Shown: positions 262 through 33,636, counted from the stretch's first letter. The stretch: 33,636 nucleotides of DNA from an uncultured Verrucomicrobiales bacterium (GCA_903898185.1 CAIUEN010000083.1:1-33636), one strand, 5' to 3'. Numbers and translations are program-made. The notes: generated from the sequence alone by a model not told the origin.

Positions 262-1080
262 ATGCCCATTTTTTATGATACTCACGCGCATTTGGACGAC
301 GCGGACTTTGCGTCCGACCTGCCGCAGGTGATCGAACGCGCTGGCGCGGCGGGCATTGCCACGTTGATCTCCGTTGGAACCGACCATGAAACCAGTGCCG
401 CCGCCGTTCGAATTGCCGGGCAATATGATAACATCTTTGCCGTCGTCGGTTGGCATCCCAATGATGCTCACAAAGCTCCCGAGGATGTCCGCCTGGAGTT
501 GCAGGATCTCGCCCTGAACCCCAAGGTGGTGGCAATCGGCGAGATGGGACTGGACTATTACCGACTGCCCAAAGTGACTTCAGACGCCATCGGAGCCGAG
601 GTGGAGCAAATCAAACAGATCCAGGCTCGCGTCTTTCGTCAGCAACTCGAACTGGCCGCCGAACTGGGGCTTAACTGCGTCGTTCACCAGCGTGGGGATT
701 GTTTCAATGACATCCTCGAGTTGATGCGCCCTTTCGCGGACAAAATACGCGCTGTTTTCCATTGTTTCTCCGAAGGCCCCGACGCGCTGGCCCGTGTTCT
801 GGAGATGGGGTTTTTCGTCAGCTTCACCGGAATCATCACATTCCGAACCGCCGACATCATGCGCGCCTCGCTGGCTGCGGTGCCGATGAACCGATTCATG
901 TTGGAGACCGATTGCCCCTATCTGGCCCCCGAACCTCACCGGGGCAAGCGTTGCGAGCCTGCTTACCTCGCCGAAACCGCAAGAATGGCCGCCAAAGTGA
1001 AGAACTGCTCGATCGAAGACCTCAGTGCCACCACCTGCGCCACAGCACAGGAGTTTTTCAAGAAATTAAATGCCTCTTGA
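262..1080 (+). CDS. tatD: TatD family metal-dependent hydrolase/DNase
   Basis: The 272-residue protein has the TatD-type TIM-barrel metallohydrolase layout. An N-terminal H-x-H metal motif (DTHAHLDD, about residues 6-13) is followed by GEMGLDYY (about 92-99), a VVHQR histidine, AVFHCFSEG, and a C-terminal LETDCPYLAPEPHRGKR segment carrying the last metal-binding Asp. Length is normal for the family (about 255-270). Characterised members are Mg-dependent 3'-5' exonucleases or DNases in the cytoplasm; the substrate here cannot be told from sequence. The ATG at 262 puts the metal motif where expected, although no Shine-Dalgarno is visible. It stands alone between repeats and is convergent with the GuaB3-like gene. 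Confidence 0.93.
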   Translation: MPIFYDTHAHLDDADFASDLPQVIERAGAAGIATLISVGTDHETSAAAVRIAGQYDNIFAVVGWHPNDAHKAPEDVRLELQDLALNPKVVAIGEMGLDYYRLPKVTSDAIGAEVEQIKQIQARVFRQQLELAAELGLNCVVHQRGDCFNDILELMRPFADKIRAVFHCFSEGPDALARVLEMGFFVSFTGIITFRTADIMRASLAAVPMNRFMLETDCPYLAPEPHRGKRCEPAYLAETARMAAKVKNCSIEDLSATTCATAQEFFKKLNAS

Positions 1081-1276
1081 CAGGGGAAGGCTCACACGAA
1101 GACACAAAGGCACGAAGAGGCAGGGAAGGAACTCTCTTTTTTCCAGACTGTTTAATAAACACAAACTGCTGAGTAGCAAGAAATCCATTAGTTGCGTTTC
1201 TTAAACAGACTGGTTTGCCAAACCCAATCCTCTTTGTGCCTTTGTGTCTTTGTGTCTTTGTGTGAGCCTTCCCCTG
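1081..1276. repeat. Inverted repeat with 8-bp tandem units
   Basis: The left arm (1081-1120, beginning CAGGGGAAGGCTCACACGAA) is complementary to the right arm (1229-1276, ending GAGCCTTCCCCTG). The right arm holds a tandem array of an 8-bp unit (TTTGTGCC, TTTGTGTC, TTTGTGTC, TTTGTGTG), one unit more than the left arm. A third partial copy lies at 8280-8308. The arms begin immediately after the tatD stop codon. No gene is recognised in the region. Confidence 0.75.
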
Positions 1277-1289
1277 TTTGGCAGTTATG

Positions 1290-1353
1290 CTTTGAATGGG
1301 CATCAATGTTATTTCTTGCGCCAAGAACAATGAACGATCTTACCCGTTTACAG
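1290..1353 (+). repeat. 65-bp palindromic repeat unit, copy 1
   Basis: This stretch matches 7790-7854 (same strand) and 13369-13433 (opposite strand). All copies start near CTTTGAA, contain TTGCGCC or its equivalent, and end with GATCTTACCCGTTTACAG or a close variant. The two ends are themselves an imperfect inverted repeat built on ACGGGTAAGA. This copy is solitary, whereas the other two form ends of larger elements. Confidence 0.7.
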
Positions 1354-1357
1354 GAGA

Positions 1358-2536
1358 TTATCGTGTTCCCATTCCTACGCTCTGGACGGTTTGAAAGAGT
1401 TTGCCTTCGGTCTTGATGCTGGGGGCGATAATGATTTCGGTCTCTTGAAACTCGCGAATCGAAGCCGCGCCGACATTGCCCATGCATGTGGTGATCGCGC
1501 CAACGAGGTTTTGCGATCCATCATCGACATCGGCCGGACCGTAGAGAATCTGTTTGAGCGAACCGGTGACGCCCACTTTGATGCGGGTGCCGCGGGGCAG
1601 GTTCGCATGAGGAGTGGCCATGCCCCAGTGATTGCCCTTGCCTGGGGCTTCCTTGGCGCGGGCGAAGGCGCTGCCAACCATCACAGCGTCCGAGCCGCAG
1701 GCCAACGCCTTGCAGACATCGCCGCCTTTGCTCATGCCGCCGTCCGTTATAATCGGCACATAGCGGCTGGTCTGTTTGAAGTAGTGGTCGCGAGCGGCGG
1801 CACAGTCAACGGTCGCAGTGACCTGCGGCACGCCCAAACCGAGCACACCGCGACTGGTGCAGGCAGCGCCCGGACCAACGCCAATCAACACGCCGGCCAC
1901 GCCGCATCCCATGAGTTGGTAGGTCACATCGTGGGTCACCGCGTTGCCAACGAGCACAGGCATCGACATCCGCTTGCAGAAATCGGCCAACTCCAGCGAC
2001 TTGTATTCGGTCGAGATATGGCGGACGGTTGAGACAGTGGATTGCACCACAAAAATGTCAGCGCCAGCTTCCTGGGCGATGGCGCCAAATCGCTCCGCCT
2101 TCTGAGGTATTGAACTGACGGCCGCCAACACACCGGCTTTCTTAAGTTCGATAATGCGCTTGGCAATCAATTCCTCTTTGATCGGTTCGAGGTATGCCTT
2201 TTGAATGAGGACAGTGACCTCATCCTTGCCGGCCTTGACGATGGTTTCGAGAACTTCAGTCGGGTTTTCGTAGCGGGTTTGAATGCCTTCAAGGTTGATC
2301 ACGCCCAAGCCGCCGAGTTTGCCCATCTCGATGCAGAACCGCACGTCGGTCACCCCGTCCATCGCGCTGGCGATGATGGGAATCTTCAAGTTGAAGAAAC
2401 TGCCGTCCTTGCGGGGAATCTTGAAGGTTGTATCAACTTCGTTGGGGTTGATGGTGACTTCACCGGGCACCAGCGCGATTTCATCGAAACCGTAGGTGAC
2501 GCGAGCTTTTCTATTACGTCCGATCCACATTCCCAT
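1358..2536 (-). CDS. guaB3: GuaB3-type IMP dehydrogenase-related protein
   Basis: The 392-residue protein is an IMPDH/GMP-reductase-superfamily TIM barrel without the CBS pair of canonical IMPDH, as in the GuaB3 group. Visible motifs are IIASAMDGVTD (about 55-64), the catalytic loop GVGPGAACTSR with its Cys at about 226, GVPQ, and the IITDGGMSKGGDVCKALACGSDAVMVGSAFA phosphate-binding region (about 262 onward, quoted here in short: ITDGGMSKGG). The C-terminus ends GMGTR. Canonical IMPDH oxidises IMP to XMP in guanylate synthesis; the exact reaction of this paralogue is uncertain. Two ATGs lie at the start (2536 and 2530). It is monocistronic, flanked by repeats, and no terminator is obvious. 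Confidence 0.85.
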   Translation of the reverse strand: MGMWIGRNRKARVTYGFDEIALVPGEVTINPNEVDTTFKIPRKDGSFFNLKIPIIASAMDGVTDVRFCIEMGKLGGLGVINLEGIQTRYENPTEVLETIVKAGKDEVTVLIQKAYLEPIKEELIAKRIIELKKAGVLAAVSSIPQKAERFGAIAQEAGADIFVVQSTVSTVRHISTEYKSLELADFCKRMSMPVLVGNAVTHDVTYQLMGCGVAGVLIGVGPGAACTSRGVLGLGVPQVTATVDCAAARDHYFKQTSRYVPIITDGGMSKGGDVCKALACGSDAVMVGSAFARAKEAPGKGNHWGMATPHANLPRGTRIKVGVTGSLKQILYGPADVDDGSQNLVGAITTCMGNVGAASIREFQETEIIIAPSIKTEGKLFQTVQSVGMGTR

Positions 2537-2645
2537 AGGCTGTTCTTTTCTTAAAAAGTTTGAGGTTCAGGTTCAAAGTCTTGAAACGACTTGCGCCCAG
2601 TCTGTGCCAAGGGCCGCAAAAAAGCAACTCACACGCACAACTCGA

Positions 2646-2778
2646 CAGCAATTCTCATTATGTAGGGTAGGCATCTGGCCTGCCAGTTGCGGTGCCTCTG
2701 GCTCCGCCGGGAGTCGAAAACTCCGTACGCGCGCAGATCAGCGTTTTTCCACTTCCTTGCTCATAATAAGAATTGCTG
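2646..2778. mobile_element. MITE-like element with about 17-bp terminal inverted repeats
   Basis: The left end CAGCAATTCTCATTATG (2646-2662) and right end CATAATAAGAATTGCTG (2762-2778) are near-perfect inverted repeats bounding 133 bp without a coding frame. A second, left-truncated copy occupies positions 1-93. Isolated ends occur at 18827-18843 and, degenerate, at 23625-23641. No flanking target duplication was convincing by eye. Confidence 0.7.
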
Positions 2779-2795
2779 ACAACTCTAACTCCGGT

Positions 2796-3020
2796 TCAAA
2801 ACTTTATCGCTTCGTTCGGAGTTCCACACTGTGAGCAGCGCGAGCGGTCAACGTCCGCGTCATCCGTGTAGAGAGTTCCGCACCGTTCACATCGAAAGAT
2901 GCGATCCGGGCTCCGCGCGGAGCGAAATCGCCGACTGCGAAGTTCGGAATATATGGCGAGTACCGAAAGCCCCGCAAGCAAAGAAAGCAGATAAGCGAAA
3001 ATGAGTGTGTCAGCGGACAT
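2796..3020 (-). CDS. Small membrane-anchored zinc-ribbon protein
   Basis: The 74-residue protein has one predicted transmembrane helix near the N-terminus (about residues 5-24, TLIFAYLLSLLAGLSVLAIY), a basic Arg-rich linker, and a C-terminal four-cysteine zinc ribbon (CERCGTLYTDD...CSQCG). I do not recognise a named family. Its start overlaps the end of the TonB-like gene by 11 bp, so it is probably the last gene of the ExbB-ExbD-TonB-like operon and translationally coupled to it. A cytoplasmic metal-binding knob on a membrane anchor is inferred from the basic residues after the helix; its role is unknown. Confidence 0.7.
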   Translation of the reverse strand: MSADTLIFAYLLSLLAGLSVLAIYSELRSRRFRSARSPDRIFRCERCGTLYTDDADVDRSRCSQCGTPNEAIKF

Positions 3021-3828
3021 GGGTTGATGCTTTGGGGGTAAAAGCAGCGTCAGGCAGGGCGGTTTGCCACTCGATAATCAGGTTTCCCCAAGTCATTCTA
3101 GGAACTGCGTCGGCGGGTAATGCCATTGGGGTGAAATGCATCAAGCGGGCCACGCGAAGCGCCTCGGCATCCGCAGCCTCCAAGCCGGAGCGCGGATCCC
3201 GCAGGCGCACGGACACCACCTCGCCGTCATTGTCAGCCGCCATTTCGACGATGGATCTGCCCACCAGCGGCAACGTCAAGTCAGCCGGCGGCGGCCAGCA
3301 ACGGAGGTTTTCGGGCAATTCCGTCTTGCGCAACAGCAGATCGCCGGTCAGACGCGCAACCGATTGCGTTCGCGCCGAAGAGTTCGGACGAAGAAGTGGA
3401 ACCTGCTCAATTTTAGGTCCCGCCAGAATGCCTGGCTGCAACGGCGGCTTCAGCCGTGCCACTGACGAATCGGAAAGTGTCCCAAGCCGCGCCAGGTCCA
3501 TTGCGAGCCAGCGCGCCGGACTGTCGCGATCCGGCAGCGAATAGGTCAGCGGGGGTATTCGCAGCCACGCCGGCCCGGAAAAACTGTGCAGGCTGGCTGA
3601 GGAAAAAAGCGTTGGGTCCAAGGCAAAAAATGATTTGGCCAACTGCCGGGAAGTCACCGGCGTGGTTACCATGTGAATGTTTGGACGTGGTCTGTGCGGA
3701 CGAGCGGAGTCGCTGTGGTATTCGGAAAACGCAAAAATCATCGCCAATTGCGCCAGGAAAAACCCGCAGATGACCAGCCACCATTGACGGCTGCTCCATG
3801 TGAATTGTTCTGGCGGGCGGCCATTCAT
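3010..3828 (-). CDS. TonB-like protein, single N-terminal TM and TonB-C-like domain
   Basis: The 272-residue protein has a cytoplasmic start, one transmembrane helix (about residues 14-31, WWLVICGFFLAQLAMIFAF) and a long periplasmic part. The last about 75 residues resemble the TonB C-terminal fold: a DNDGEVVSVRLRDPRSG strand-turn, a helix with DAEALRVARLMHFTP, and a final strand GNLIIEW. The Pro/Lys-rich spacer typical of E. coli TonB is absent. It lies 13 bp after the ExbD-like gene in the same operon, which supports an energy-transducer role linking the inner-membrane complex to outer-membrane or cell-wall partners. The similarity is by pattern only and the N-terminal 190 residues are unassigned. 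Confidence 0.6.
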   Translation of the reverse strand: MNGRPPEQFTWSSRQWWLVICGFFLAQLAMIFAFSEYHSDSARPHRPRPNIHMVTTPVTSRQLAKSFFALDPTLFSSASLHSFSGPAWLRIPPLTYSLPDRDSPARWLAMDLARLGTLSDSSVARLKPPLQPGILAGPKIEQVPLLRPNSSARTQSVARLTGDLLLRKTELPENLRCWPPPADLTLPLVGRSIVEMAADNDGEVVSVRLRDPRSGLEAADAEALRVARLMHFTPMALPADAVPRMTWGNLIIEWQTALPDAAFTPKASTHVR

Positions 3829-3841
3829 TGGTTTGGTCTCG

Positions 3842-4489
3842 TCAACGATTGGTACGCATTGAGAATGTCCCAGGGCGGGTCGATAGGATCACCTCGCGAA
3901 TCCCGACCTCGCTGGCGAGCGAGGCGAGGCGGACGATTGTCTCTTCGCTGACCCCCTTGTCGGCCAGCAGCACCAATGTCAGGTGTTTGGCGTTGCCCGC
4001 CTCCGCCTTCTGGCGGTCGAGCAATTGCGCGCTCAATTCCGCCTTGGTCAGGAGCTGGTTTTCGTAAAAGAACTGGTCGCGCGGGTTGACCGCCACCAGC
4101 GCCACTGGATTGGTCGTCCCGAGCATTCCTTCGGCAATCGGCGGCTCGATCAGAAGCATGTCACGAATCTGATTTCGCACGCGCGAAGACGCCCCTGGTT
4201 CGCTCCCCAGCCGTGCCGGCTGGCCCACAGGAATGCCGCCCAAATCCTGGCGAAGTTGCTGGAGATCGGCTTCTTCCGGCTTATAGGTCTTGCCTGCGAA
4301 TTGGATCAGATTCGAGCGCGTCACAGTAATATCCACGCCAGCAGCGTTGCTGCCAACTTGCACCAGGACGCCTGGAGTATATAAAAGCGATCCCAGGAGG
4401 ACGAAGATCACCAGCAAGAACAAGACTCCAGCCACCGGGGCTGGGTCAAGTTGGCCGCGAAAAATTTTGGCGTGACGCGGGAATCTCAT
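3842..4489 (-). CDS. ExbD/TolR-like biopolymer transport protein (atypical)
   Basis: The 215-residue protein has a short basic cytoplasmic tail, one transmembrane helix (about residues 18-37) and a periplasmic domain of about 175 residues, the ExbD/TolR layout. Aligning the helix with the family motif T-P-x-x-D-V puts Gly21 (A-P-V-A-G-V) where the family has the membrane Asp needed for proton coupling in E. coli ExbD (Asp25). The DNA reads GGA there. An Asp at residue 15 lies outside the expected place. The periplasmic domain is longer than usual and carries a second ExbD-like segment (about 150-210, LTLVLLADKGVSEETIVRLA). The start overlaps the ExbB-like stop as ATGA, showing translational coupling. 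Confidence 0.75.
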   Translation of the reverse strand: MRFPRHAKIFRGQLDPAPVAGVLFLLVIFVLLGSLLYTPGVLVQVGSNAAGVDITVTRSNLIQFAGKTYKPEEADLQQLRQDLGGIPVGQPARLGSEPGASSRVRNQIRDMLLIEPPIAEGMLGTTNPVALVAVNPRDQFFYENQLLTKAELSAQLLDRQKAEAGNAKHLTLVLLADKGVSEETIVRLASLASEVGIREVILSTRPGTFSMRTNR

Positions 4490-17516: not shown

Positions 17517-18296
17517 ATGAACACTTCTGAACAACCGAACGCAAAATTGCCGATTACGGCGTTTTTGTTGGTGGATGCCCTGTTTGTGGGGCTGGCGATA
17601 CTCATTTTCTGGACAGCTCATCGTCCGTTGCTGCTTTGGGAAGCCGTTTTTTTGTCTGCATGCGCAGGTCTGGCTGCCTGGAGCATGATTTACCCGGTGT
17701 TGCGCCGCCATGCCGATTCCCAAGCCGCAAGCCAAACCAGCGCCCTCGTCAACAGCGTTGCCCAAATCAACCGCCTTGATGAAGTTGCATCCCAGATAGC
17801 GGGTGCCACCACCCAATGGCAGTCCGTTCAAGGCTATGCCACAAGAATTTCGGAAGTTTCAAAGGAACTGCTCCAATCCATGGGCCTTGAAGTCAAAAAC
17901 TTCTCCGAAATGCTCCAGAAAGCCAGCGACGCCGAAAAGGCGCACCTGCGTCTGGAGGTCGATAAGCTGCGCCGGGCTGAAATGGAATGGCTCCAGGCGC
18001 TGACGCGTATCATGGACCATGTTTACGCCCTCTACTTTGCGGCTGCGCGTTCGGGGCAGCCTAATTTGGCCGATCAGATCGGGCAGTTTCAGGAAGCCTG
18101 CCGCGACGCTGTCCGGCGCGTCGGGTTGCTGCCAATTATTGTGACGCCAGGCGACAAGTTCGATGCCCAGATCCACCAGTTGGTGGATGAAAACACGACA
18201 GCCCCGGAAAATGCGGTTGTCGAAAACACCCTGGTTACTGGATTCAGCTACCAAGGCCAACTTATCCGCAGGGTAGTGGTCAGTTTGCGTTCGTGA
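17517..18296 (+). CDS. Membrane-anchored GrpE-like protein
   Basis: The 259-residue protein has two predicted N-terminal helices (about residues 13-34, ITAFLLVDALFVGLAILIFW, and 37-62), a long helical coiled-coil region (about 80-165), and a C-terminal domain resembling the GrpE beta domain: GLLPIIVTPGDKFDAQIHQLV, then ENTLVTGFSYQGQLIRRVVV. In GrpE this is the DnaK-contacting wing and the helices dimerise. A transmembrane anchor is not part of normal GrpE. It may be a membrane-localised DnaK partner, but the N-terminal half is not diagnostic. ATG 17517 is preferred to the TTG at 17475. The stop codon lies inside the first unit of a tandem repeat. Confidence 0.55.
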   Translation: MNTSEQPNAKLPITAFLLVDALFVGLAILIFWTAHRPLLLWEAVFLSACAGLAAWSMIYPVLRRHADSQAASQTSALVNSVAQINRLDEVASQIAGATTQWQSVQGYATRISEVSKELLQSMGLEVKNFSEMLQKASDAEKAHLRLEVDKLRRAEMEWLQALTRIMDHVYALYFAAARSGQPNLADQIGQFQEACRDAVRRVGLLPIIVTPGDKFDAQIHQLVDENTTAPENAVVENTLVTGFSYQGQLIRRVVVSLRS

Positions 18297-18416
18297 ATGG
18301 TTGAATCGTGAATGGTTGAATCGTGAATGGTTGAATCGTGAATGGTTGAATCGCGCTTCAACGCTTTAACGATTTAACCATTCAACGATTCAACGATTCA
18401 ACGATTCAACGACTCA
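18293..18416. repeat. 15-bp tandem array followed by inverted array
   Basis: Four perfect copies of GTGAATGGTTGAATC (18293-18352) are followed by reverse-oriented units based on AACGATTCAACGATTCAACG (about 18357-18416). The halves can fold on each other. The stop codon of the GrpE-like gene is within the first unit. Confidence 0.9.
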
Positions 18417-18468
18417 CCGATGCTTCTTGCAACTCCACAATCTCGTTGCATTATTACATCCGCCTTAT

Positions 18469-21657: not shown

Positions 21658-21821
21658 TTTTACAGTTTTTTAGCTTTTCTTGTTTGGCCGTCCGCGCTAA
21701 ATTTCTTCCATGCCTCGGTTTATCGACGGGGGTCCGGGCCCGTTGTCCAACGAGGACGCAGGCTGCGCGACATTAGTTGTTTTCTGTCGCGACTTTCCCT
21801 TGCAGGGGAACGCTTGTACTT

Positions 21822-23303
21822 ATGTTTCAACCAAGAATTATTCAGGGCGGAATGGGCGTGGCTGTGTCCGGTTGGTCGTTGGCGCGCGCTGTTTCGCGCA
21901 TGGGCCAGCTTGGGGTGGTTTCAGGAACCGCCTTGGCGGTGGTTCTCGCCCGGCGTCTCCAACTTGGCGACTCCGGCGGCGAACTTCGTCGTGCGCTGGC
22001 GCATTTTCCTGTTGCGAACGTGGCCGACAGAGTGCTTGCGGAGTTTTTTGTTCCTGGTGGCAAGCCCGCCACAACGCCATTCAAGCTCTCGGCAATGCCC
22101 AGACTGAAATCGCGGACATCAATGGTGGAGTTGACCGTTGTCGCCAATTTTGTGGAAGTCTTCCTGGCTAAGGAAGGCCATGACGGCTTGGTGGGGATCA
22201 ATTATCTCGAAAAAGTCCAACTCCCAACCCTCCCTTCGCTCTTCGGCGCGATGCTGGCCGGGGTCGATTATGTCCTGATGGGCGCGGGCATTCCCCGAGC
22301 GATTCCCGGCGCTCTTGATCTTCTGTCCCGGGGCGAGGCAGTCCACCTGCGCATCGACGTGGAAGGCGCCCTCCCGGGCGAGGAGCACTTTTCGACCTTT
22401 GACCCGCGATGCTTTTGCGGTGGTGCGGCGCCTGCTCTCAAGCGGCCTCAATTTTTGGGCATCGTCGCGTCCGCCACTCTGGCCATTGCTCTGGCGAAGA
22501 AATCCTCTGGAAGTGTTGAAGGTTTTATTGTTGAAGGCCCCACTGCCGGTGGCCACAACGCACCGCCGCGCGGCCCGCTCCAGCTCAGTCCCGCCGGTGA
22601 ACCGATCTATGGTTCGCGCGATGTGCCGGAGATCGAAAAAATCCGTGCCTTGGGATTGCCTTTCTGGCTTGCCGGCTCCTTTGGACGGCCTGGAAAACTC
22701 GACGAAGCTCTTTCCATGGGAGCGGTCGGTGTGCAGGTGGGTACCGCCTTCGCATTTTGCGAAGAATCCGGTGTTTCTCCAGAACTCAAGCGGCAGGCCA
22801 TTGAACTCAGCCGCCTTGGCCAGGCCCGCGTTTTCACCGATCCGCTGGCTTCACCCACGGGATTTCCATTCAAAACTGCGCAAATGCCCCACACGCTCTC
22901 CGATCCGGAGGGTTACGCGGCTCGCACTCGGATCTGCGATCTGGGTTACTTGCGCCACCTCTACCGGAAAGAGAATGGCGCGGTCGGCTACCGCTGTCCC
23001 AGCGAACCAATTGAGGATTACTTGCGCAAAGGTGGCGCCTTGGAACAGACCGTTGGGCGCAAATGCGTATGCAACGGCTTGCCCGCCACGGTCGGCATGG
23101 GTCAAGTGCGCGCCGATTCCGGCGATGAACTGCCTCTTGTGACTGCTGGTGATGACTTGGCAAACTTGGCTCAGTTTGTAGCGCCAGGCCGCGATACATA
23201 TTCCGCCGCCGATGTTTTGCGCATCTTGGAACAGCCAGTGGATTCGCCGATTGCCGGAGGATGCGCCTGCCAAGTGTCCAGGATAGGCATAATTCCGCCT
23301 TGA
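21822..23303 (+). CDS. Nitronate monooxygenase/2-nitropropane dioxygenase-family flavoprotein
   Basis: The 493-residue protein has the FMN-binding TIM barrel of the NMO/NPD family: IIQGGMGVAVSGWSLARAVS at the N-terminus (about 5-24), VDYVLMGAGIPR, then FIVEGPTAGGHNAPPRG (about 240-256) with the family His region, LPFWLAGSFGRP, and GAVGVQVGTAFAFCEES. It is longer than simple NMOs (about 320-350) and its C-terminus has a Cys-containing segment (GRKCVCNGLPATVGMGQVR) and GGCACQV, which recalls PfaD-like enoyl-reductase relatives. No fatty-acid or polyketide genes are near. The ATG 21822 is chosen because the family motif begins four residues later; the frame starts earlier at 21777. Confidence 0.82.
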   Translation: MFQPRIIQGGMGVAVSGWSLARAVSRMGQLGVVSGTALAVVLARRLQLGDSGGELRRALAHFPVANVADRVLAEFFVPGGKPATTPFKLSAMPRLKSRTSMVELTVVANFVEVFLAKEGHDGLVGINYLEKVQLPTLPSLFGAMLAGVDYVLMGAGIPRAIPGALDLLSRGEAVHLRIDVEGALPGEEHFSTFDPRCFCGGAAPALKRPQFLGIVASATLAIALAKKSSGSVEGFIVEGPTAGGHNAPPRGPLQLSPAGEPIYGSRDVPEIEKIRALGLPFWLAGSFGRPGKLDEALSMGAVGVQVGTAFAFCEESGVSPELKRQAIELSRLGQARVFTDPLASPTGFPFKTAQMPHTLSDPEGYAARTRICDLGYLRHLYRKENGAVGYRCPSEPIEDYLRKGGALEQTVGRKCVCNGLPATVGMGQVRADSGDELPLVTAGDDLANLAQFVAPGRDTYSAADVLRILEQPVDSPIAGGCACQVSRIGIIPP

Positions 23304-23723: not shown

Positions 23724-26147
23724 CTATCTCGCATCCACGGCATACGCCTCATAAATCGCCAACCGCCTGTTTTGCGCGCCAGGCGCAACCGCTGATCCGT
23801 TGACTGTATTCAACAGCTCAATCCTTGCCGTGTGCGGACCATAATTGTCGCTCAATTTGCTCGCAAGGTTCTTGGGCCAGAGCTGCAGAGTGCGGACAAA
23901 CGCGCTGACCGGCACATTCCAGTAGCTGTCAAAGGCGCTGTAAACCGGATCGCCGTCCAGCCAGACGGAAACTTTGCCGGAGGCAGTGCCGCAGTGGATA
24001 TAGAGAACCAACCCGCTTCCTGTGAACGGGATTACCAGCGTTGCGTTTCCGACATCGTCGCTGTAATGCCAATTGCGACTTGAGTCTTTCTGGGATGCTT
24101 CCAGACCCCATGTACCGCCAAACTGCATCTGATTCCATGGAACCACGCATCCATCGAATGTATAGGCAATGGCGGCTTCGATATTGACCGCCTTGTCGGT
24201 CGGGCAAAGCCTGAATCCCCAATTGGGAAACAGGCTCCAGTTTGTGCCCCAAGTGGGCCCATAGCCAAAATCAACAGCGTTCATTTCGGCGATCGAAAGA
24301 ATGGAGAGCAAGCCGCCCCAGGATTGATTCGGAACGGCAACGGATTTTCCCCAGCCTCCTCCAGAAACGAAGTTGCTCAGCGTTGCCGTGTTGGTGGCGC
24401 TGAAAAACAGATCGACAGCCAGCGCTCGCGAAAAGTTATACATCAAATTGCTTCCAGGCCCGACGCTGTAGGAGGCATTCGTAATCGGCAGGTTCGCCAG
24501 GTTCGGCCCCAGCGAAGCCGACGATGCCGCGGCGCCCCTTGCGGATAGCGCTGTTCCCGCCGAGGCTGTCAATTCAATCTCGGCGCAGTTTGGAAAACAG
24601 TTGGACTGAGCGTTGAGCAACAAGCGCGTCTGCGGGACGACCGGATATTCCGTCGCCTGCGGCACAGAGAAGAGCGACTTGATTGCTCCAGCAGTGGCAA
24701 TGTGCCCGGCATTATTCTGGTGAACCCCGTCCGCGTAGGTCGCGCCGGTAAAATTCCCCAACGCATCGGCGTTCAGTTCCGCGATCCGCGAAAACGTGTC
24801 AATAAATTCACAGCCCTGCCAATCCGCAATGACCCTGTATTTGTCAAACTGGACATTTTGGATGCTGGCAAAATCGGCGCGGTAATATCCATTCCACAAG
24901 ATCACCTCGACGTCTCGTTTTCGAAGCCGATGAATGGCGCTCTCCAAGTAGCCAAGCTCTTCCTGTGAATTGGTTGCGCTATTGGCTCCAAAGCAGATGA
25001 TGGCCAAGTCCGGCCGCTGGCGAATGATCGGGAATTCCGCCACTCCGCTTGCGGGCGATACGTTCTCGGTGTCAATGTAATGGTTCTTTGAGATGGCCCA
25101 GTAAGGGAAATCGACGTTGGCGCGAACCGGACTGCTGACGGTGTTTCCCAAACAAGCCAAACCCCACTTTGCGAGCTGGCCGCCGACACCCATGTTTTGG
25201 ACGGTAATGCTGGTTTTTCCGAGGCTGACCGCCTGATTTGTCATGGACGGCGAAAGCAACAAACTGACCCAGTTGCTGCCGCCGGTTGACCCGCTTCCGG
25301 CTGTGGTTGAATCTCCCAGGCACAGGACGCGTACCGGTTGGCCTGCCAACAGTTTGGCTCGCGTTCTGGAAATGCGAGATGCGGGCACGTCGAAACTGAC
25401 CGGCTGGCTGATGTTCAGAACAGAATTGGTTGAGGTCACAATGCTCCCCAGGCAAACGCTTCCTCTGTCAATCGCCCGCCGCCACGCGTGATATGAGAAA
25501 TCCTGGAGATCAAGCGTGATAAGGTTCGTGGCCGACCAGGCAATCCTCACCGAACCCGCCGGGATAATCTGGGAACTCCCGTCCGCAAACGTGAGTGCGC
25601 CAGCGGCAATGGTGGCGGTCTGGCCGTTCACGGTAATCGCAAAGCGTCCTTTGAAATCTCGCGCCACGACGTCTCCCAAGGCGGTGATCGCGGTCGAATT
25701 GGTGCTGATACTGACGATTCTGAAACTGCCACCCAGACCGCCGGGGAAGCTGTTCGTTGAGCATTGGGCCAGCGGCGTGGGATTCTGCCACGCATATAGC
25801 CGCACAACGCCATTGGCGACCGTTGTCCAGTAATCGGCGCCCACTTCGGTGGAGTTCATGGCATATTCGTATGCGTGTCCGGTCACATTGCTGTAAGCGC
25901 CCAGCGCGCCGCTGTTCGAGCAATAAGCAATCGTGAGCAGACTGGTATCGTAATTGGTAACGGATCGCGGCGCGCAAAAGGTCGCGTTGGTTGCCCGTCC
26001 CTCAGACGCGATCAGAACAGGAGCCGTTGCCCAGAAATTGGCGGGAGCCAGGACGTTTCCGTTGGTTCCGATCATCAGTGGAATGGTGCTCTGAGCCAAG
26101 GTGGCCAGAGTTATTGTTTGGGTCAGGATCAAAGATAGGAATTTCAT
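23724..26147 (-). CDS. Large secreted SGNH/GDSL hydrolase at end of phage-derived cassette
   Basis: The 807-residue protein begins with a signal-like segment (MKFLSLILTQTITLATLAQS). A beta-rich N-terminal part (about 25-260) precedes an SGNH domain: block I VLCLGDSTTAGSGSTGG with Ser280, block II Gly in NMGVGGQ (about 321), block III CFGANSATN with Asn389, block V YADGVHQNNAGH with Asp473 and His476. All four catalytic blocks are intact. The C-terminal about 300 residues are beta-rich and may bind carbohydrate. It is the last gene of the minus-strand cassette, separated from the connector gene by a dispersed repeat. It could be a tail-fibre-like esterase or an unrelated host enzyme. ATG 26147 is chosen for the signal sequence. 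Confidence 0.75.
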   Translation of the reverse strand: MKFLSLILTQTITLATLAQSTIPLMIGTNGNVLAPANFWATAPVLIASEGRATNATFCAPRSVTNYDTSLLTIAYCSNSGALGAYSNVTGHAYEYAMNSTEVGADYWTTVANGVVRLYAWQNPTPLAQCSTNSFPGGLGGSFRIVSISTNSTAITALGDVVARDFKGRFAITVNGQTATIAAGALTFADGSSQIIPAGSVRIAWSATNLITLDLQDFSYHAWRRAIDRGSVCLGSIVTSTNSVLNISQPVSFDVPASRISRTRAKLLAGQPVRVLCLGDSTTAGSGSTGGSNWVSLLLSPSMTNQAVSLGKTSITVQNMGVGGQLAKWGLACLGNTVSSPVRANVDFPYWAISKNHYIDTENVSPASGVAEFPIIRQRPDLAIICFGANSATNSQEELGYLESAIHRLRKRDVEVILWNGYYRADFASIQNVQFDKYRVIADWQGCEFIDTFSRIAELNADALGNFTGATYADGVHQNNAGHIATAGAIKSLFSVPQATEYPVVPQTRLLLNAQSNCFPNCAEIELTASAGTALSARGAAASSASLGPNLANLPITNASYSVGPGSNLMYNFSRALAVDLFFSATNTATLSNFVSGGGWGKSVAVPNQSWGGLLSILSIAEMNAVDFGYGPTWGTNWSLFPNWGFRLCPTDKAVNIEAAIAYTFDGCVVPWNQMQFGGTWGLEASQKDSSRNWHYSDDVGNATLVIPFTGSGLVLYIHCGTASGKVSVWLDGDPVYSAFDSYWNVPVSAFVRTLQLWPKNLASKLSDNYGPHTARIELLNTVNGSAVAPGAQNRRLAIYEAYAVDAR

Positions 26148-26166
26148 ATTATGTTTTGATTGTTCA

Positions 26167-26226
26167 TGTAGCATAGGCATCCCTGCCTGTGCCTCTCCCA
26201 CCGGCGAGCGTCAGCGAGCCGCTAAC
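26167..26226 (+). repeat. Dispersed GTAGCATAGGCATCC repeat, copy 4
   Basis: TGTAGCATAGGCATCCCTGC is followed by a C/T-rich spacer and GGCGAGCGTCAGCGAGCCGC, matching 5252-5311. It lies between the connector and hydrolase genes. Confidence 0.8.
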
Positions 26227-26257
26227 TTCGCCCTTTTACGCAAACGGTTACAATTGT

Positions 26258-26830
26258 TCACTGAAATCTTACATGACGCCGCAGCGTGCTTTGAACGGAG
26301 GGGAGCAATTCTTGTTGCGCATAAGCGGTGGTCAGACTGCCATCGGTCACGCTCAACAAGCCCAGTTTGGTTCGGTTCAGATACCAGCAAGCCAACTGCT
26401 CCACACAGGCTTCCTGAATGTCTTCGGGAAGAGGCGTCTGTCCCGGTTTGATTTCGTCGCCGGGCAGAACATATCCGCCCGTGTAAATAACACGCGCCCA
26501 TTGACGGCACGTCCCGAGCCGCAAGGACAGCGATATCACACACGCGCGCCGCACCCAATAATCCGGCGGCAGTGCGATCTCCTGCCAGCCAGTGGCCTCG
26601 TTGTCCTTGATCTCGAATCGTGACACGGTCTCGATCGGGTAGCTGCCTGTGACGATTTCCACGGCATCGGCGCCGAACTCTTCGCACGTATCGACCTGTC
26701 GTCCAAGGCTTCGGTTGCAGAAACGCTCAAACCGGGCGCTGATGGCGTCGATCATGCGGTTCAGCATTGCATCGTCGGCAGTGCCGGTGATTGCAAGTCG
26801 GGCTTTTACTATTGATAGTTGTGTTAGCAT
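26258..26830 (-). CDS. Phage head-tail connector protein (gp6-like)
   Basis: The 190-residue protein has the pattern of HK97 gp6/Gp15-type head-completion proteins: an N-terminal helix TQLSIVKARLAITGTADDAM, helix LNRMIDAISARFERFCNR, a central beta region with DYWVRRA and RVIYTGGYVLPGD, and a late helix PEDIQEACVEQLACWYLNRT. Such proteins sit under the portal in the capsid vertex. It is two genes downstream of the capsid gene in head-gene order, which supports the call. Start ATG 26830 gives a natural N-terminus. Confidence 0.75.
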   Translation of the reverse strand: MLTQLSIVKARLAITGTADDAMLNRMIDAISARFERFCNRSLGRQVDTCEEFGADAVEIVTGSYPIETVSRFEIKDNEATGWQEIALPPDYWVRRACVISLSLRLGTCRQWARVIYTGGYVLPGDEIKPGQTPLPEDIQEACVEQLACWYLNRTKLGLLSVTDGSLTTAYAQQELLPSVQSTLRRHVRFQ

Positions 26831-26886
26831 ATTTCGTAGAGCAGTGCTTCCAGCCTGCTCAGCCTCTTATTCAGTTCTGCCAACCT

Positions 26887-26911
26887 GAACAGGCGAGGAC
26901 GCCTGTTCTAC
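26887..26911. repeat. GAACAGGCGAGGACGCCTGT palindromic repeat
   Basis: GAACAGGCG-AGGA-CGCCTGTTC is a near-perfect palindrome, also found inside each tandem unit at 28934-29148 and in variant form at 11783. Its right edge contributes the stop codon of the small gene at 26908-27081. Confidence 0.8.
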
Positions 26912-27081
26912 CTTGGTTTCCCGGAATCGGATAAATACAGCACCGGGACGCCGTTGACGCTCTTGCATTCCACGGTGTAATACAGGGCGTCGGTTTGATT
27001 TCGGATTTCGATGCGCTCCACGCGCACAGTACGCAGTTTGCGTGGCTTGCTGTTGCGCCGGATATGAACATTGAGAGACAT
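26908..27081 (-). CDS. Small basic hypothetical protein in phage-derived cassette
   Basis: The 57-residue protein begins MSLNVHIRRNSKPRKLRTVR and ends VNGVPVLYLSDSGKPR. It is basic at the N-terminus and beta-strand-like after (IEIRNQTDALYYTVECKSV). I recognise no family. It is placed tightly after the 27093 gene (11 bp) in the same direction, where phage head operons carry small accessory proteins. The alternative longer frame on this strand (26871-27071) has poor composition. The stop codon lies in a chromosomal repeat, so the original end may have been changed by repeat insertion. Confidence 0.55.
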   Translation of the reverse strand: MSLNVHIRRNSKPRKLRTVRVERIEIRNQTDALYYTVECKSVNGVPVLYLSDSGKPR

Positions 27082-27092
27082 GGGATTTGTTT

Positions 27093-27425
27093 CTATTGAT
27101 AGAAGCTTAGCGTCACAATCGTGTCTTCCGGCGACACCAGGTGCAACTGGGCGATGTCATGAACATCCCATTGCGCGGGATTCAGCTCTGGGGCTGTGCC
27201 GTCGGTGATGTCCGTGACAGGCAAGACCGCTGTGGCGTCGGGCCGAAGGTAAAAATCACCGTCGCCGGAAAAGATGCAGACTGTGGCTCCTTGCGGAACG
27301 TCAGCGATGGTCTCGACCCCGCCCGCAAGGGCGATGGCATTGATGCAAGTCGGCTTGGACCGCGCGTACACCAAGTCCGCGTTATCTCCCGACCTGTAGC
27401 AAAATCGGTTCATTATGAATGGCAT
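27093..27425 (-). CDS. Hypothetical protein downstream of capsid gene
   Basis: The 110-residue protein is mostly predicted beta strands (ATVCIFSGDGDFYLRPDATAVLP, EDTIVTLSFY), without signal or membrane segment. I do not recognise the family. Its place directly after the major capsid gene (54 bp) and before the connector matches the position of decoration or stabilisation proteins in many HK97-like phages, but this is positional inference only. ATG 27425 or 27413 could start it. Confidence 0.6.
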   Translation of the reverse strand: MPFIMNRFCYRSGDNADLVYARSKPTCINAIALAGGVETIADVPQGATVCIFSGDGDFYLRPDATAVLPVTDITDGTAPELNPAQWDVHDIAQLHLVSPEDTIVTLSFYQ

Positions 27426-27479
27426 AAAAGTTTGGTGAAAAGAACGGGCGATCCGGTACCGCCCGTTCGTAATGGCGAA

Positions 27480-28880
27480 TTAGCTGGCCGCCAACTGCAA
27501 TGCCGACATGGCGTCACTGGCCATCAACGCGATGGTGAAACGCTCCAGCGCCCGGACTGCCAGTTCGTCCGTGGCGAAGAAGACCTCGCGCGAGGTCTCG
27601 ACAGTGACGCTGGCGCGCTCGCCCAGGTACCAATAGCTGAGGTCGCCGAACGATCCCTGCGCCTGGCTGGCGTGCGCGAGGTTGTCAAACACAGGCAGCA
27701 CGCCGACCCATCGCACCGGGAAACCCTCGAAGCTCGCCTGGCCGTTGGGCCCGACCACAAACGGGCAGTAGCTGGCGGTGTTGAACGAGCGCAGGAGGGC
27801 CTCCATCGTCGGATGGAAGTAATAGGCGCTGTTGAACAGAGCCGCCGGGTTGACCTTCGAGCGCATGGAGCGCAGGTCGGCAATCGTGATGTCGCCCGGC
27901 TTGGTCTTGCCGGTGGCCAATTGCGCCACCAAACTGTTGTCAATGGCCGTCTGCCCGACGCCTTTGAGGCTGTTGAATGCGCTGGTGCCATCAGCGGTGA
28001 AGAGGACTGAGTCTTCCCATCGCGCCGTCTCCCGCGCAATGTATCGCGCCAGAAACTGGCCCAGCGGAACGATGGTGTCGGCGTCGATTTCGGACGGAAT
28101 CCGGACGATGCCTCCGGCCTTTTGCGGGTTGAACGTGACGAAGCTCAACTGCGGCGATTTTTCGGGAATGGAACCGCTCTGGTTGATGAACCCGAAGCTC
28201 GGGCTGGTCTTGAGCGTTGGCAGCTTGACAACGCCCGCGCCCAGCGGATAGACCGTCGCGTATTGGCGGGCCTGGCCGTAGCGCCAGATCAATTCGACCA
28301 ATTGCGCCGAATACTGCGTGGGCAGGGGAATATCCGTGCTGGTGAGGGCTGACTTGGATTCGATTCCGACGATCGACCGGCATTCGCCGATGAGCGATTC
28401 CCGCTGCATCCCCTTGATGTGATTGAGACCGCCGATGGTGTCCGCGCCGCAGATCACCACTGCCGCGATATACCGGGCGCAGTCATCGCTCACCGCCTGG
28501 TGCGCCATCCGGCTTGCGGTCGGAGTCAACCCAGTTTTGCGGATTTGGTTCAACTGCTTTTGCGCTTCGGCGAAATCCGCCGCCAATCCCTTGTGTGATT
28601 CGCCCAGCGACTTGAGCTCCTGCGAGGCCGACTGGTAATCGCCCACCAGTTGTTTGTTTGCCGACTGAATCTGCTGGAGCAACGACTTCATTTCGTCCAG
28701 CGGAATGACGGCTGGGGCATTGGCCAGAGCCAGGCCGCCAGCGACCCCTTTCCACGTTCCCAGCGCAACCAGGCTTGCCCAGAGGCTGCCGATTGCATCG
28801 AGAGTTCCAAACGCGAACGCCAGCGCGGCAACGCACAGCGCGCCGCCCAGCAACAGATATACGGATTGATTTGATTTCAT
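27480..28880 (-). CDS. HK97-fold major capsid protein with hydrophobic N-terminus
   Basis: The 466-residue protein has the order of HK97-type capsid precursors. A helical, coiled-coil-prone region (about 60-110, LLQQIQSANKQLVGDYQSAS) resembles the delta/scaffold domain, followed by the shell domain with ALTSTDIPLPTQYSAQLVEL, FVTFNPQKAGGIVRIPSEI, LGQFLARYIARETARWED and the C-terminal A-domain ending ALERFTIALMASDAMSALQL. Unusually, residues 7-50 are strongly hydrophobic (YLLLGGALCVAALAFAFGTL) and predicted to span a membrane. Start ATG 28880 has AAAGGA upstream; an earlier frame to 28943 lacks support. The prohead protease gene lies immediately upstream. Confidence 0.85.
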   Translation of the reverse strand: MKSNQSVYLLLGGALCVAALAFAFGTLDAIGSLWASLVALGTWKGVAGGLALANAPAVIPLDEMKSLLQQIQSANKQLVGDYQSASQELKSLGESHKGLAADFAEAQKQLNQIRKTGLTPTASRMAHQAVSDDCARYIAAVVICGADTIGGLNHIKGMQRESLIGECRSIVGIESKSALTSTDIPLPTQYSAQLVELIWRYGQARQYATVYPLGAGVVKLPTLKTSPSFGFINQSGSIPEKSPQLSFVTFNPQKAGGIVRIPSEIDADTIVPLGQFLARYIARETARWEDSVLFTADGTSAFNSLKGVGQTAIDNSLVAQLATGKTKPGDITIADLRSMRSKVNPAALFNSAYYFHPTMEALLRSFNTASYCPFVVGPNGQASFEGFPVRWVGVLPVFDNLAHASQAQGSFGDLSYWYLGERASVTVETSREVFFATDELAVRALERFTIALMASDAMSALQLAAS

Positions 28881-28933
28881 GACTGATTTTTCCTTTGTGT
28901 TTTGTGCGGGCATTTCGCCCGCGATTTTTTTTA

Positions 28934-29148
28934 CGTAGCACACGCATCCCTGCCTGTGCCCCTTTCCCCGGCGAGCGTCAGCGAGACGCTAACTAACCTC
29001 TCCTGCCCCCGGAACAGGCGAGGACGCCTGTTCTACTCTGCGCGTAGCACGGGCATCCCTGCCTGTGCCCTTTCCCCGGCGAGCGTCAGCGAGACGCTAA
29101 CTAACCTCCCCTGCCCCCGGAACAGGCGAGGACGCCTGTTCTACTCTG
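28934..29148 (+). repeat. Tandem pair of a 106-107-bp composite repeat
   Basis: Units 28934-29040 and 29043-29148 each contain CGTAGCA...GGCATCCCTGCCTG, GGCGAGCGTCAGCGAGACGC, and at their end the palindrome GAACAGGCGAGGACGCCTGT and TCTACTCTG. They differ at a few positions. They separate the prohead protease stop codon from the capsid gene. Confidence 0.9.
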
Positions 29149-29152
29149 AAGA

Positions 29153-29869
29153 TCACGCCCGGCGACAAATCGCCGCGACCTCTCTCATTAACTGCATCAA
29201 TTGAGCGTCTGAGCTGGGGTCTGCAGAATGGTTCTGCAAATTCGGATTGGAGACTGGAGAGGAAAGCGAATGCCCTTCGGCCAGCCCTCGGAGCACCTCC
29301 AACAATTCCTTGAGTTCGCTTTTCCCCACCGCGCCCGCCTTGATCGCGCATTCCAGCGCGTTCGGGTTTGCGGGGATGGCGACGGCGGAGGTTTCCAGAA
29401 GTTCCTGTTTCAAGTACCTGCGTTCGAAGCTCGTATGGCCGTTGCCGTTCTCCCACTCCAACGGGATAAACCCGACCGACACCGCGTTGAGAAAACCGCT
29501 GCGATACATCGAGTAGGCGATTCGCGCCAGGGGATTGGCCTCGACCGCAAAGCAAACGCGCTGGAACAACTGGTTGCCGCGAACCTCGGTCGCGGTGGCG
29601 CGTCCAATGGTTCTGAGAATGGTCGAATAATTGTGGGAATCCTGAAAAACCGGATTGCGCGCATATCGGTCAAGCTTCCAGCCTGAGGCGCAAATGATCT
29701 CGTTGTAGCGGTCGAGGGTTTCATCTGAACTGATGAAATCGACCACAGGCTCGCCAGCAACATCGGCGGGGACGCTGGTAATGACCTGCAATCCACCTCG
29801 CAATCCCATCTCCCCGGCTTGCAGCCCAACCAACCGCCCCGCGAACTCATTTTCCAATCGTGTTCTCAT
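29153..29869 (-). CDS. HK97-family prohead protease
   Basis: The 238-residue protein matches the U35/HK97 gp4-type prohead protease: VVDFISSDETLDRYNEIICASGWKLDRYARNPVFQDSHNYS with the catalytic His79 (in QDSHNYS), VCFAVEANPLARIAYSMYRSG, then LNAVSVGFIPLEWE with nucleophile Ser131, and LKQELLETSAVAIPANPNA. These serine proteases remove the capsid delta domain during head maturation. It has a good ribosome site (AAGGAA) before the ATG. No portal or terminase gene lies upstream within the window. Confidence 0.88.
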   Translation of the reverse strand: MRTRLENEFAGRLVGLQAGEMGLRGGLQVITSVPADVAGEPVVDFISSDETLDRYNEIICASGWKLDRYARNPVFQDSHNYSTILRTIGRATATEVRGNQLFQRVCFAVEANPLARIAYSMYRSGFLNAVSVGFIPLEWENGNGHTSFERRYLKQELLETSAVAIPANPNALECAIKAGAVGKSELKELLEVLRGLAEGHSLSSPVSNPNLQNHSADPSSDAQLMQLMREVAAICRRA

Positions 29870-30145: not shown

Positions 30146-33100
30146 TTATTTCTCCAATGCTTCCTTGAGCGCCTCGAACCGCTTGTCCAGATCACTCACG
30201 CGGGCTCGGGCCGCATCCAGATCGCCGGATTCGCCGGCTTGCTCCATCGCCCAAGCGACGGCACGCAAGGCTTCGGCTCCTACCGTGGCGCTGGCGCCTT
30301 TGATCTTGTGGGCTTGCTGTTCGACAAGGTGGGTATCGCCTGCCGCCAGATGATTTTTCAACTGCGTGATTTGGCCGGGCATATCCCCCAAGAATCCATC
30401 CAGAACCGTCCGAGCCAAGTCCGCGTCATCCTCCATTCGATTCATGAATGCCGCGCGGTCGAAGACTACGAGTTCCTTTTCATCATTGGGGTTGGCGGCT
30501 CTTTCTTCCGGTTCGCTGATCACCGCATGTTCCTCTTCGCCTTTTGGTTTGAGCCACTTTTCCAAAACCGCAATTAAAGCCGGTCGTTCGATTGGCTTGG
30601 TGAGATAATCGTTCATGCCCGCCTGTGCGCATTTCTCGCGGTCGCCTTGCATGGCATTGGCCGTCATGGCAACTATGCTTACCTGGTGGTTGAGAACATG
30701 CGATTGCGGATTGCGAATGGCCCTTGTGGCCTCAAGACCATCCATCTCTGGCATTTGCACGTCCATCAGCACCAAGTCGTAAGGCAACGTTTCGAGGGCT
30801 TTGACAGCCTCGACGCCATTGGCAGCCACATCGACTTTAAGCCCCAGTTTCTTGAGAATGCCCACCGCCACTTGCTGATTGGTGATATTATCCTCGGCGA
30901 GCAGAATGCGCAGATGACTGAAACTTTCCCCAAAGGAGACATCGGGCGTCGATTTCATTTGGGATGGGGCGATTTCTTTGCCACTAATGACGGCCGCCAG
31001 CACATCAAATAATTCCTGTCGCCGAACGGGTTGGGACAGCGTGGCGCTAAAGCCGATTTCTTTGAACTCTTGATCGTCACCCATTTGACCGATGGATGCG
31101 GACATCACCAATCGTGTATTCTCAATGCCAGAACACTTGCGAATGGCGCGGCCCAGCGATTTGCCATCCATGCCGAGCATCTGCATCCCCAGAATGGCAA
31201 GTGTGAAAGGTTGCTGCGGGACTTGGGCTTGAGTCAGCGCCCTCAGGGCGGACGGACCATCGACGGCTTCAACGGGGTACATGCCCCAAGACGAAAGCAA
31301 GGTCATAAGAACCTCCCGATTGACGGGATGGGCATCAACAATCAAGACTCGCACTCCGCCCAGATCGGCCAACTCTGGCGCTGCCGCTGGTTCGCGCAAG
31401 GGCTGCTTTGCCAGAAGCGCCGTAAACCAGAATTCCGAGCCCTTGCCGACCTCGCTGTTGATTCCGATCTCGCCGCCCATCAACTCGGTCAGTTGCTTGG
31501 AAATCGCCAGGCCCAACCCTGTGCCGCCGTAGTTGCGCGTCGTCGAGGCATCGACTTGCGAGAATTTTCCAAACAGCCGTCCGATCTTGTCCTCAGGAAT
31601 GCCAATCCCAGTGTCCTGCACGGCAAACCGCAGTCGAACATCGGTGGGTGTTTCCGAGATTACACTTACCCTGACGACAACCTCGCCGTGGGCCGTGAAC
31701 TTGATGGCGTTGCCGGTCAAGTTGATAAGAATCTGCCTCAAACGCCCCGGATCGCCTTGAAGAGCTGAAGGAACCTCCGGTGCCACCACGCATCCCAATG
31801 CCAGTCCTTTCTGGTGAGCACGCAGCGCCATCATCCCGGCGAAATCATCCAGAAAGCTGTGCAGGCCAAAGTTCAAGGTTTCCAGTTCGAGTTTCCCAGC
31901 CTCGATTTTGGAAAAATCGAGGATGTCATTGATCAGGGAAAGCAGGGCTTCACCGCTGGCGCTGGCGGTCTGGGCGTAGTGGCGCTGATCCCCAGTCAGG
32001 TTTGTATCCAGCAACAAACCAACCATGCCCAGAACTCCGTTGAGCGGCGTGCGGATTTCATGGCTCATGTTGGCCAGAAACTCACTCTTGGCCGCATTAG
32101 CCAACTCGGCACGAGCGGTCTCTTGTTCGAGGCGGTGGTTGAGGTCGATGAGTTTTTCCTCCGCCAGCTTTCGCCCTGTGATGTCACGGAATGTCCACAT
32201 TCTCCCGTAGTATTTCCCATTCCCGCCCCATACAGGCGCAGAATATCTGTCCAGAACCGTTCCGCTGTTCAATTCGATCTCATCCTGGCTGATCTCATTG
32301 CGGTGCTTATAGAGGTATTGAACTTTCTCAGGAAATTCATCGGGGCGTAGGGTTAAGTTTACAACATGTTTTAACAGCAGGGCCTGATCTGCATTCTCCA
32401 CAATATGCTGGGGAACATAAAACATCTTCACGAACCGCTGGTTCATAAGGACGCGTTTATGATTCTCGTCGATCACCAAAACCCCTTCGATGGACGCGTT
32501 TGTCTGAGCCTCAAGCAAAGCTGTCTTTTCTTGCAACTGGTTCTCCACTCGCTTCTGTTCGGTGATATCCCAGTTGGTGCCGACCATGTGCGTGGGTTGA
32601 CCGGAAGCGTCACGTCGCACGATCGCCAGAGCGCGCATGTAGTGGGTGCTTCCATCCGGCCAGAGCACGCGAAACTCGGTGTCGAACTTCTTTTCGCCCC
32701 GCAACGCCAGTTGGATCTCTTGGTCGCCTCGCTGACGATCATCCGGATGGACACCCGCCAGCCAAGCCTCGTAAGCGCTGCCAAACTCATCCCGTGTTAT
32801 GCCATAGTGGCGAAACATCTGTTCGTCCCAGACGAGCTTGTTGTTGAGCACGTCATAGTCCCAGATGCCCACAGCGCCCGCGCAAGTGGCCAGCGTCAGG
32901 CGCTCGCTCAGTTGGCGCGAAATTTCCTCCGCCCGCTTGCGCTCTGAAAAATCCACGAAGCAAGTCAGTAATCTTTCCCGGCCATACCATTGGATGCGTT
33001 TCGTTTTTACAAAAATGGCCAAGCGGCTGCCATCGGCCAACAGCATCTCCTGCTCCGAATCGTGCAGATCGCACGAAGAATAACAATTACTCGCTCTGCT

Positions 33101-33636
33101 ATCGGGACATACAAAAAGAGATCGGCACCGTTGCCCCTCAATGTTATCCAGAGCGCCGCCAAACATCGTGGCGACATGATTATTCGCCCGCTCGATGATC
33201 CGCGATATCGGGTCTATAATGACCACCCCGGCTGGAAGATTGTCCATCAGTGTGCGTTGCATGGCTTCGCTTTCCCGCAGTTCGCGGGTACGGTCCATAA
33301 CCATCCGCTCCAGTTGCTCACGCCGCCGATGGAGAAGACCGATCGTGATTGCGAGCGCGATGGTGGCCACCAATCCACTCAGACCGACCAGCCAGCCAGC
33401 CCGCACTGGGTGCAGGCGCATAAACTCAGGGCCTGCGTAGGCTGTCACGGAAAAAACCTTGTCGAAGGCCAGAGCGATGCGCGTCAGGGAAGGCTCTGTG
33501 AGCTTTGGGCGATCTGCCAGCCAGGAAGCAGCCAGTGATTCGGACGTTCCATCCTTGCGCAGCAGCGTCAGTTCCATAAGCACCGAGTTGTTCGGCATTG
33601 CGCTGCGCAACAGGCTTTCCAACCGCAACACGGCCA
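30146..33636 (-). CDS. Hybrid sensor histidine kinase (CHASE-TM-PAS x3-HisKA-HATPase-REC-REC-Hpt), 5' part outside window
   Basis: At least 1161 residues are present and the frame is open at the window edge, so the N-terminus is missing (numbering from 33631). Visible in order are the end of a periplasmic CHASE-like sensor, a transmembrane helix (about 80-100), a PAS domain with a Cys set ([13 protein letters not shown]), two more PAS/PAC domains (about 245-360, 370-490), HisKA with [10 protein letters not shown] (His524), HATPase with NAIKFT, DTGIGIP and GGTGLGLAI, receiver 1 (about 760-880), receiver 2 (about 905-1025, Asp957, [15 protein letters not shown]) and Hpt (His1108, [11 protein letters not shown]). 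Receiver 1 has Gly815 at the phospho-Asp position (ILGMQML) and Gln instead of the usual Lys (SQPVRR). It probably signals by His524-Asp957-His1108 relay to an unlinked regulator. Confidence 0.92.

Follow-up and report, generated by a model that had tools for sequence, protein, structure and literature searches.

Known domesticated phage structures are either tails (tailocins) or whole particles, the gene transfer agents (GTAs). Endogenisation, frequently at multiple loci, is part of the definition of a GTA, and inheritance is mostly vertical; in BhGTA, the terL gene lies outside the main cluster (PMC9662315). Further GTA features set out there are caudovirion-like particles, a cargo of mostly random host DNA, a genome that cannot itself be packaged in full, and DNA delivery to other cells. 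No GTA or domesticated head from Verrucomicrobiota could be found in the literature searched, and PMC12946183 makes no mention of the phylum. The genes described here resemble those of RcGTA, BaGTA and BhGTA in encoding an HK97 capsid, an S78 protease, a portal and TerL, in their spread over several loci and, in one genus (g16), in their vertical inheritance. They differ in that no tail gene was found, in being dispersed gene by gene as small blocks, in having a Verrucomicrobiota Mu-like/HK97 siphophage as putative parent, and in being known here from genes alone. Encapsulins share the HK97 fold and are among the PDB matches of the capsid model, but they form a self-sufficient shell with a cargo gene and have no need of protease, portal or terminase, whereas here all three are kept with their catalytic residues and no such make-up was found.

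The window, i.e. the whole stretch of DNA analysed, is the complete 33.6-kb contig C83 of a draft genome of 535 contigs (95.6% complete). We propose, with moderate confidence, that the head-gene cassette in it is one locus of a host-domesticated, tail-less, multi-locus head-and-packaging system, most likely giving a GTA-like particle. If true, such a head-only set, unlinked and under selection, would represent a novel result of domestication, and a GTA candidate in this phylum that is testable in a closed genome.

The head-gene cassette and its surroundings

As the earlier note had described, genes for a protease, a capsid, two small proteins, a connector and an SGNH hydrolase follow each other in head order on the minus strand, and all frames read from the window sequence are intact (Table 1). 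The catalytic His and Ser motifs of the protease are conserved in a motif alignment (NPVFQDSHNYS and NAVSVGFIP). The 110-aa protein has relatives in the viral contigs L096 and L122, where they are encoded 3' of the capsid gene, indicating that it is a phage head-region gene; by this position, a role as head accessory or decoration protein can be suggested. Membership of the SGNH protein in the cassette is unproven, since no relative of it was found in the IMG/VR contigs or loci searched with it, and it may be an ordinary host enzyme. Related cassettes carry a different secreted protein between capsid and connector. The SGNH protein was also considered as a phage tail fibre, but the PHROG matches are weak and cover the hydrolase domain only, and viral relatives are lacking.

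Table 1. Features of the window (contig C83) and of related loci mentioned in the text.
Feature	Position	Strand	Description
Adjacent short tandem arrays	18291-18420		15-bp and 8-bp units, partly mutually complementary
Host nitronate monooxygenase-type gene, downstream boundary	21777..23303	+	PF03060/PF00478
Secreted SGNH/GDSL hydrolase	23724..26201	-	825 aa, likely start 26147; PF13472 E 2e-9
gp6-like head-tail connector/adaptor	26258..26830	-	190 aa; PF05135 E 5e-8, phrog_442 E 1e-20
57-aa ORF between 110-aa ORF and connector	26908..27081	-	read from sequence
110-aa protein	27093..27425	-	iterative HMM search
HK97-fold major capsid protein	27480..28880	-	466 aa; PF05065 E 4e-26; orthologues intact
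Signal-anchor-like capsid N-terminus	28700-28880	-	also in L106, L116, L132, L148, L177
REP-like dispersed repeat, two copies between protease and capsid	28927..29148		further copies at ~26884-26911 and 26160-26234
S78 prohead protease	29153..29869	-	238 aa; PF04586 E 5e-6, phrog_80/617
Host hybrid sensor kinase, upstream boundary	30146..33631	-	PAS/HisKA/HATPase/Response_reg/Hpt; stop at 30146
Five tandem paralogous lipoprotein-like genes	L062 (G004:C445) 289-4298	opposite	YNGRTLSEWL motif; between TerL end and portal
Signal-peptide gene, capsid-connector interval	L281:10734-11684, L016:8264-9205, L174:8614-9465, L079:8983-11037		in phages and head-only sets

The host flanks claimed before, a sensor kinase upstream and host genes downstream, were confirmed by a domain scan of the window proteins. 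The rest of the contig encodes housekeeping functions (GatB, EngA, IF-3, PilM, TatD and others), and a scan of the 22 window proteins yielded no further phage genes among the families listed. The capsid block ends at a host gene where related phages carry the portal. The repeats between the cassette genes belong to a genome-wide family (49 matches); being dispersed in this way they are not a phage feature, and an interpretation as phage ends was ruled out. Two adjacent tandem arrays were also observed elsewhere in the window (Table 1).

Unlinked packaging genes and head-only sets

The portal and terminase, reported as missing in the earlier note, are indeed absent from the locus, but both could be identified at unlinked positions in the same genome. 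The single portal gene (496 aa) is located on contig C208 beside hemA/hemC-type genes, and the single TerL gene on contig C395 together with a TerS-like gene, TerS being called here and elsewhere by position and distant HMM similarity. Two further small genes on contig C395, of membrane or coiled-coil type, are similar to proteins of phage lysis regions. The three loci lie on separate draft contigs. Those of TerL and portal end within ~180 bp of the genes, and the two could be chromosomal neighbours; an exact end overlap between C395 and C208 is absent.

The division of the genes over the chromosome differs between lineages. The blocks are TerS-TerL, portal and protease-capsid-connector in the genome of the window, TerL, portal and protease-capsid-connector in G016 and G101, and TerL-portal-connector and protease-capsid in G139 and G180. 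G072 has TerL-portal, with connector-capsid-protease a few kb away on the opposite strand, while G005 has one new order, capsid-connector-portal-TerL, with a host gene between capsid and connector. The head genes are contiguous in G121, G199 and G191. Gene order varies between genera, and the flanks differ in G121 and G199. Such complementary partitions of single-copy genes are not expected from random decay, and contiguous, two-block and three-block sets would, if the proposed reading is true, represent a natural series of phage module disassembly while functional. As a separate observation, lipoprotein-like genes are found in tandem near the portal in L062 (Table 1), and a gene similar to this family follows TerL in L068.

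The capsid is present, with open frames, in 24 of the 245 genomes of the same order; the majority of the genomes compared are drafts. Five of these contain full siphophages, with a portal fused to Mu-F and a gp10-like tail gene, and are exactly the genomes with portal frames of 725-980 aa; the gp10-like gene is absent in the other 19. The 16 remaining genomes with a portal encode one of ~400-580 aa, with neither Mu-F fusion nor gp10, the 710-codon frame of G016 containing, as judged from its orthologue, a portal of 406 aa. Stops flagged inside the portals of G004 and G101 proved to be the natural stop, as these frames (458 and 406 aa) end just inside the alignment; the portals of G013 and G121 resemble them in frame length, and their stops are probably natural too. 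Most genomes lacking the tail gene have a single capsid, protease, portal, connector and TerL, and portal and TerL are both present in eight of the nine head-only genomes with a completeness of 90% or more and a contamination of 5% or less. Host genes directly flank the head-only sets, such as leuS, a GFO/IDH oxidoreductase and a response regulator, and dnaN in G050.

In the capsid tree, a head-only group of 19 sequences forms a supported clade (100/96), although some of its members from viral contigs lie next to further phage genes. The capsid of the window joins those of two same-family genomes (100/100), with the full phages L079 and L080 alongside, implying that the head-only state arose more than once. 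Head-only capsids at more than one place in the tree would also fit decaying prophages, i.e. a family siphophage that was inserted and then broken by repeats and rearrangement, with head genes by chance still intact. Full family siphophages do exist (L079, L106, L158), some fragments of capsid and of TerL are found, and the capsid is split from the connector by a host gene in G005; moreover, several capsid matches among the 245 genomes are short fragments, showing that some copies do decay. Against this explanation stand the single complementary copies at unlinked loci, as well as the retention of head and packaging genes without a tail. The latter is the opposite of the usual decay pattern, in which the tail (fibre) and integrase genes of ordinary incomplete prophages persist while portal and terminase are preferentially lost (PMC7744054).

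Inheritance, selection and the search for a tail

G101 is a closed, single-contig genome from the same genus (g16) as G016, but from a different species. In both, protease-capsid-secreted protein-connector, portal and TerL occupy three loci, each of them syntenic with host genes, which bears out the idea of conserved boundaries in related genomes. Synteny of three unlinked loci in two species indicates that they are vertically inherited, as is probably also the case in G004 and G005. In G101 the portal is 36 kb, and TerL ~0.6 Mb, from the capsid cassette, which would make a single packaged piece implausible.

This arrangement also bears on the possibility of a capsid-forming satellite (cf-PICI), which would make its own heads and borrow tails from helper phages. 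cf-PICIs carry TerS, TerL, portal, protease, capsid and connector and no tail, which is the same gene set, and in the viral contigs L185-L187 the cassette is coupled to a replication module. However, no integrase, regulator or replication gene lies near the chromosomal cassettes, their positions are fixed and their host flanks syntenic in two species, and genes at unlinked loci could not be packaged together as a single element. Nothing was found to mark them as a mobile unit, and we consider this explanation very improbable.

Selection was estimated as dN/dS (NG86, with 95% intervals from codon bootstrap). Between G101 and G016 it amounts to 0.10 (0.07-0.14) for the capsid, 0.08 (0.06-0.12) for the portal, 0.13 (0.09-0.16) for TerL, 0.11 (0.06-0.16) for the connector and 0.22 (0.13-0.32) for the protease, while the secreted protein between capsid and connector has 0.15 and the host controls RecJ and IMPDH have 0.18 and 0.016, respectively. 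The selection anticipated for capsid and protease is therefore found, and extends to portal, connector and terminase; at a dS of 0.7-1.15, none of these head genes contains a stop codon. In same-family genomes the values are 0.14 for the capsid and 0.17 for the connector (G004 versus G005), and the capsid of the window compared with that of G004 has 0.17. From these we infer a similar behaviour of the lineage to which the window belongs, selection in it being carried over from the same-family genomes. For the TerL paralogues of G024, three copies set among different host genes, the values are 0.07-0.10. These amplified, near-complete copies (contigs C314, C153 and C487, L067-L069) share ~89% DNA identity, with homology that stops near the gene ends and a shared downstream repeat of ~115 bp; fragments of TerL occur on C548 and C106 of the same genome.

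Syntenic, stop-free orthologues at this divergence, with a dN/dS of ~0.1, speak against decay. In the parts searched, the relatives show neither tail, lysis, replication or integration genes of a prophage nor relaxed selection, and the same would apply by extension to the window's own lineage. A decaying prophage is rejected for genus g16 (G016/G101), and overall we regard this explanation as quite unlikely. The earlier suggestion of a domesticated rather than a decaying element is thus upheld by conserved boundaries and purifying selection in relatives, and reaches the genome of the window through its same-family genomes.

The tail-tube protein of a sister phage is absent from the genome of the window (G000) and from G004, G005, G013, G016 and G024; a search in 58 relatives gave matches in G011 and G050 only. 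A set of 247 tail-side proteins, taken from 47 loci, found no tail relatives in 1.64 Mb (35%) of the G101 genome; four host proteins, large and secreted, gave weak fibre-type matches. In a control, a relative encoded in a different phage locus was detected for 203 of these 247 queries, and the G101 head genes were recovered by the HMMs. In ~76 kb around the three G101 loci, the first 25 of 41 PHROG families, those listed, belong to head, portal, protease, terminase and host functions, with no tail family among them. Absence of a tail is thus defined by similarity to the phages' own family, and a diverged tail elsewhere is possible.

A complete GTA with tail genes at some other place, diverged beyond the reach of these searches, would agree with the frequent spread of GTA genomes over several loci (PMC9662315), with the retained connector, and with an extra tail-completion-like gene beside the connector in the cassettes of G024 and L122. 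We nevertheless consider it unlikely, as the gp10-like gene and the sister tail tube are absent, 35% of G101 contains no tail relatives, and the portal of the tail-less forms has lost its Mu-F domain.

The proposed tail-less system has two features of GTAs, namely caudoviricete-derived proteins (capsid, protease, portal, TerL and connector) and full endogenisation over multiple loci (three unlinked loci in G101, separate contigs in the genome of the window). Judged from its genes, the head-and-packaging set probably packages DNA like a GTA. Domestication would have preserved TerS-TerL, portal and protease-capsid-connector, but not the genes for replication and integration nor, as far as the searches reach, those for a tail; the blocks would then have drifted apart in the chromosome, still single-copy, complementary and under purifying selection. 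The capsid precursor would assemble on the portal and be matured by the protease, TerL would pump DNA into the head, and the connector would close a tail-less or short-necked head, giving a cell-made, GTA-like (viriform) particle. Of the two roles considered earlier, a GTA-like particle or a protein shell, the retained portal and intact terminase favour the former, DNA-packaging role over a bare shell; an encapsulin-like shell was ruled out by the same retention of portal and TerL. Portal, catalytic TerL, protease and connector are what a DNA-filled head needs, suggesting in our view that the cell makes DNA-packaging heads. We class the set as GTA-like and not as a GTA proper.

Alternatively, the host could keep head proteins that poison or divert particle assembly by related phages infecting it. 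Such phages do infect members of this order, and interference by capsid and terminase is a known theme of satellites (PMC12409344), but all catalytic residues of protease and TerL and the whole gene set are kept, beyond the needs of a decoy, and such anti-phage interference appears very unlikely. Returning to a packaging role, a tentative wider reading, to which we give somewhat less than an even chance, is that several lineages of the order independently domesticated a DNA-filled siphophage head, scattered and tail-less, with DNA released or delivered by a non-tail route.

The phage parent and the head proteins

TerL of the window's genome is 57-59% identical to that of the Mu-like transposable phages B3, Mwe-Yong1, StopSmel and Aussie, whereas the best INPHARED matches of capsid (25%) and portal (~25%) lie in other phages. 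Relatives of capsid and portal are numerous in IMG/VR and in Verrucomicrobiota genomes, and the best reading is that the parent was a Mu-like/HK97-type siphophage of Verrucomicrobiota. Complete phages of the family encode TerL, portal, protease, capsid and connector, then the gp10-like gene, and some also a tail tube and tape measure; in L106, the portal carries a fused Phage_Mu_F domain (783 aa). Uncultivated Verrucomicrobiota siphophages such as L079, L106 and L158 (IMG/VR) share with the domesticated sets homologous TerL, portal, protease, capsid and connector genes in the same relative order, and some also the 110-aa protein, but have a portal-MuF fusion, gp10-like gene, tail tube and tape measure that the domesticated sets lack. 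The TerL of G016 and G101 is of a second type, also used by full family phages (52-53% identity), and its ATPase and nuclease residues, like those of the first type and the His and Ser motifs of the protease, are intact. The elements L185-L187 (IMG/VR, 18-24 kb) couple a head-only portal-protease-capsid-connector set to a replication module, a DUF4055 protein and a TerL of a second type; they are possibly satellites or hybrid phages.

At its N-terminus the capsid bears a hydrophobic segment, and a long, delta/scaffold-like helix is predicted ahead of the core. The best PDB matches of its AF2 model (mean pLDDT 70.8) are the RcGTA capsid and siphophage capsids, the RcGTA capsid being the top match (E 2e-13), tied with a siphophage. 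A signal-peptide gene between capsid and connector occurs in phages and in head-only sets (Table 1). Furthermore, ~53 of the 116 capsid precursors of the family start with a basic and hydrophobic, signal-anchor-like segment before the scaffold-like region, seen in full phages and head-only sets alike, which may tether prohead assembly to the membrane.
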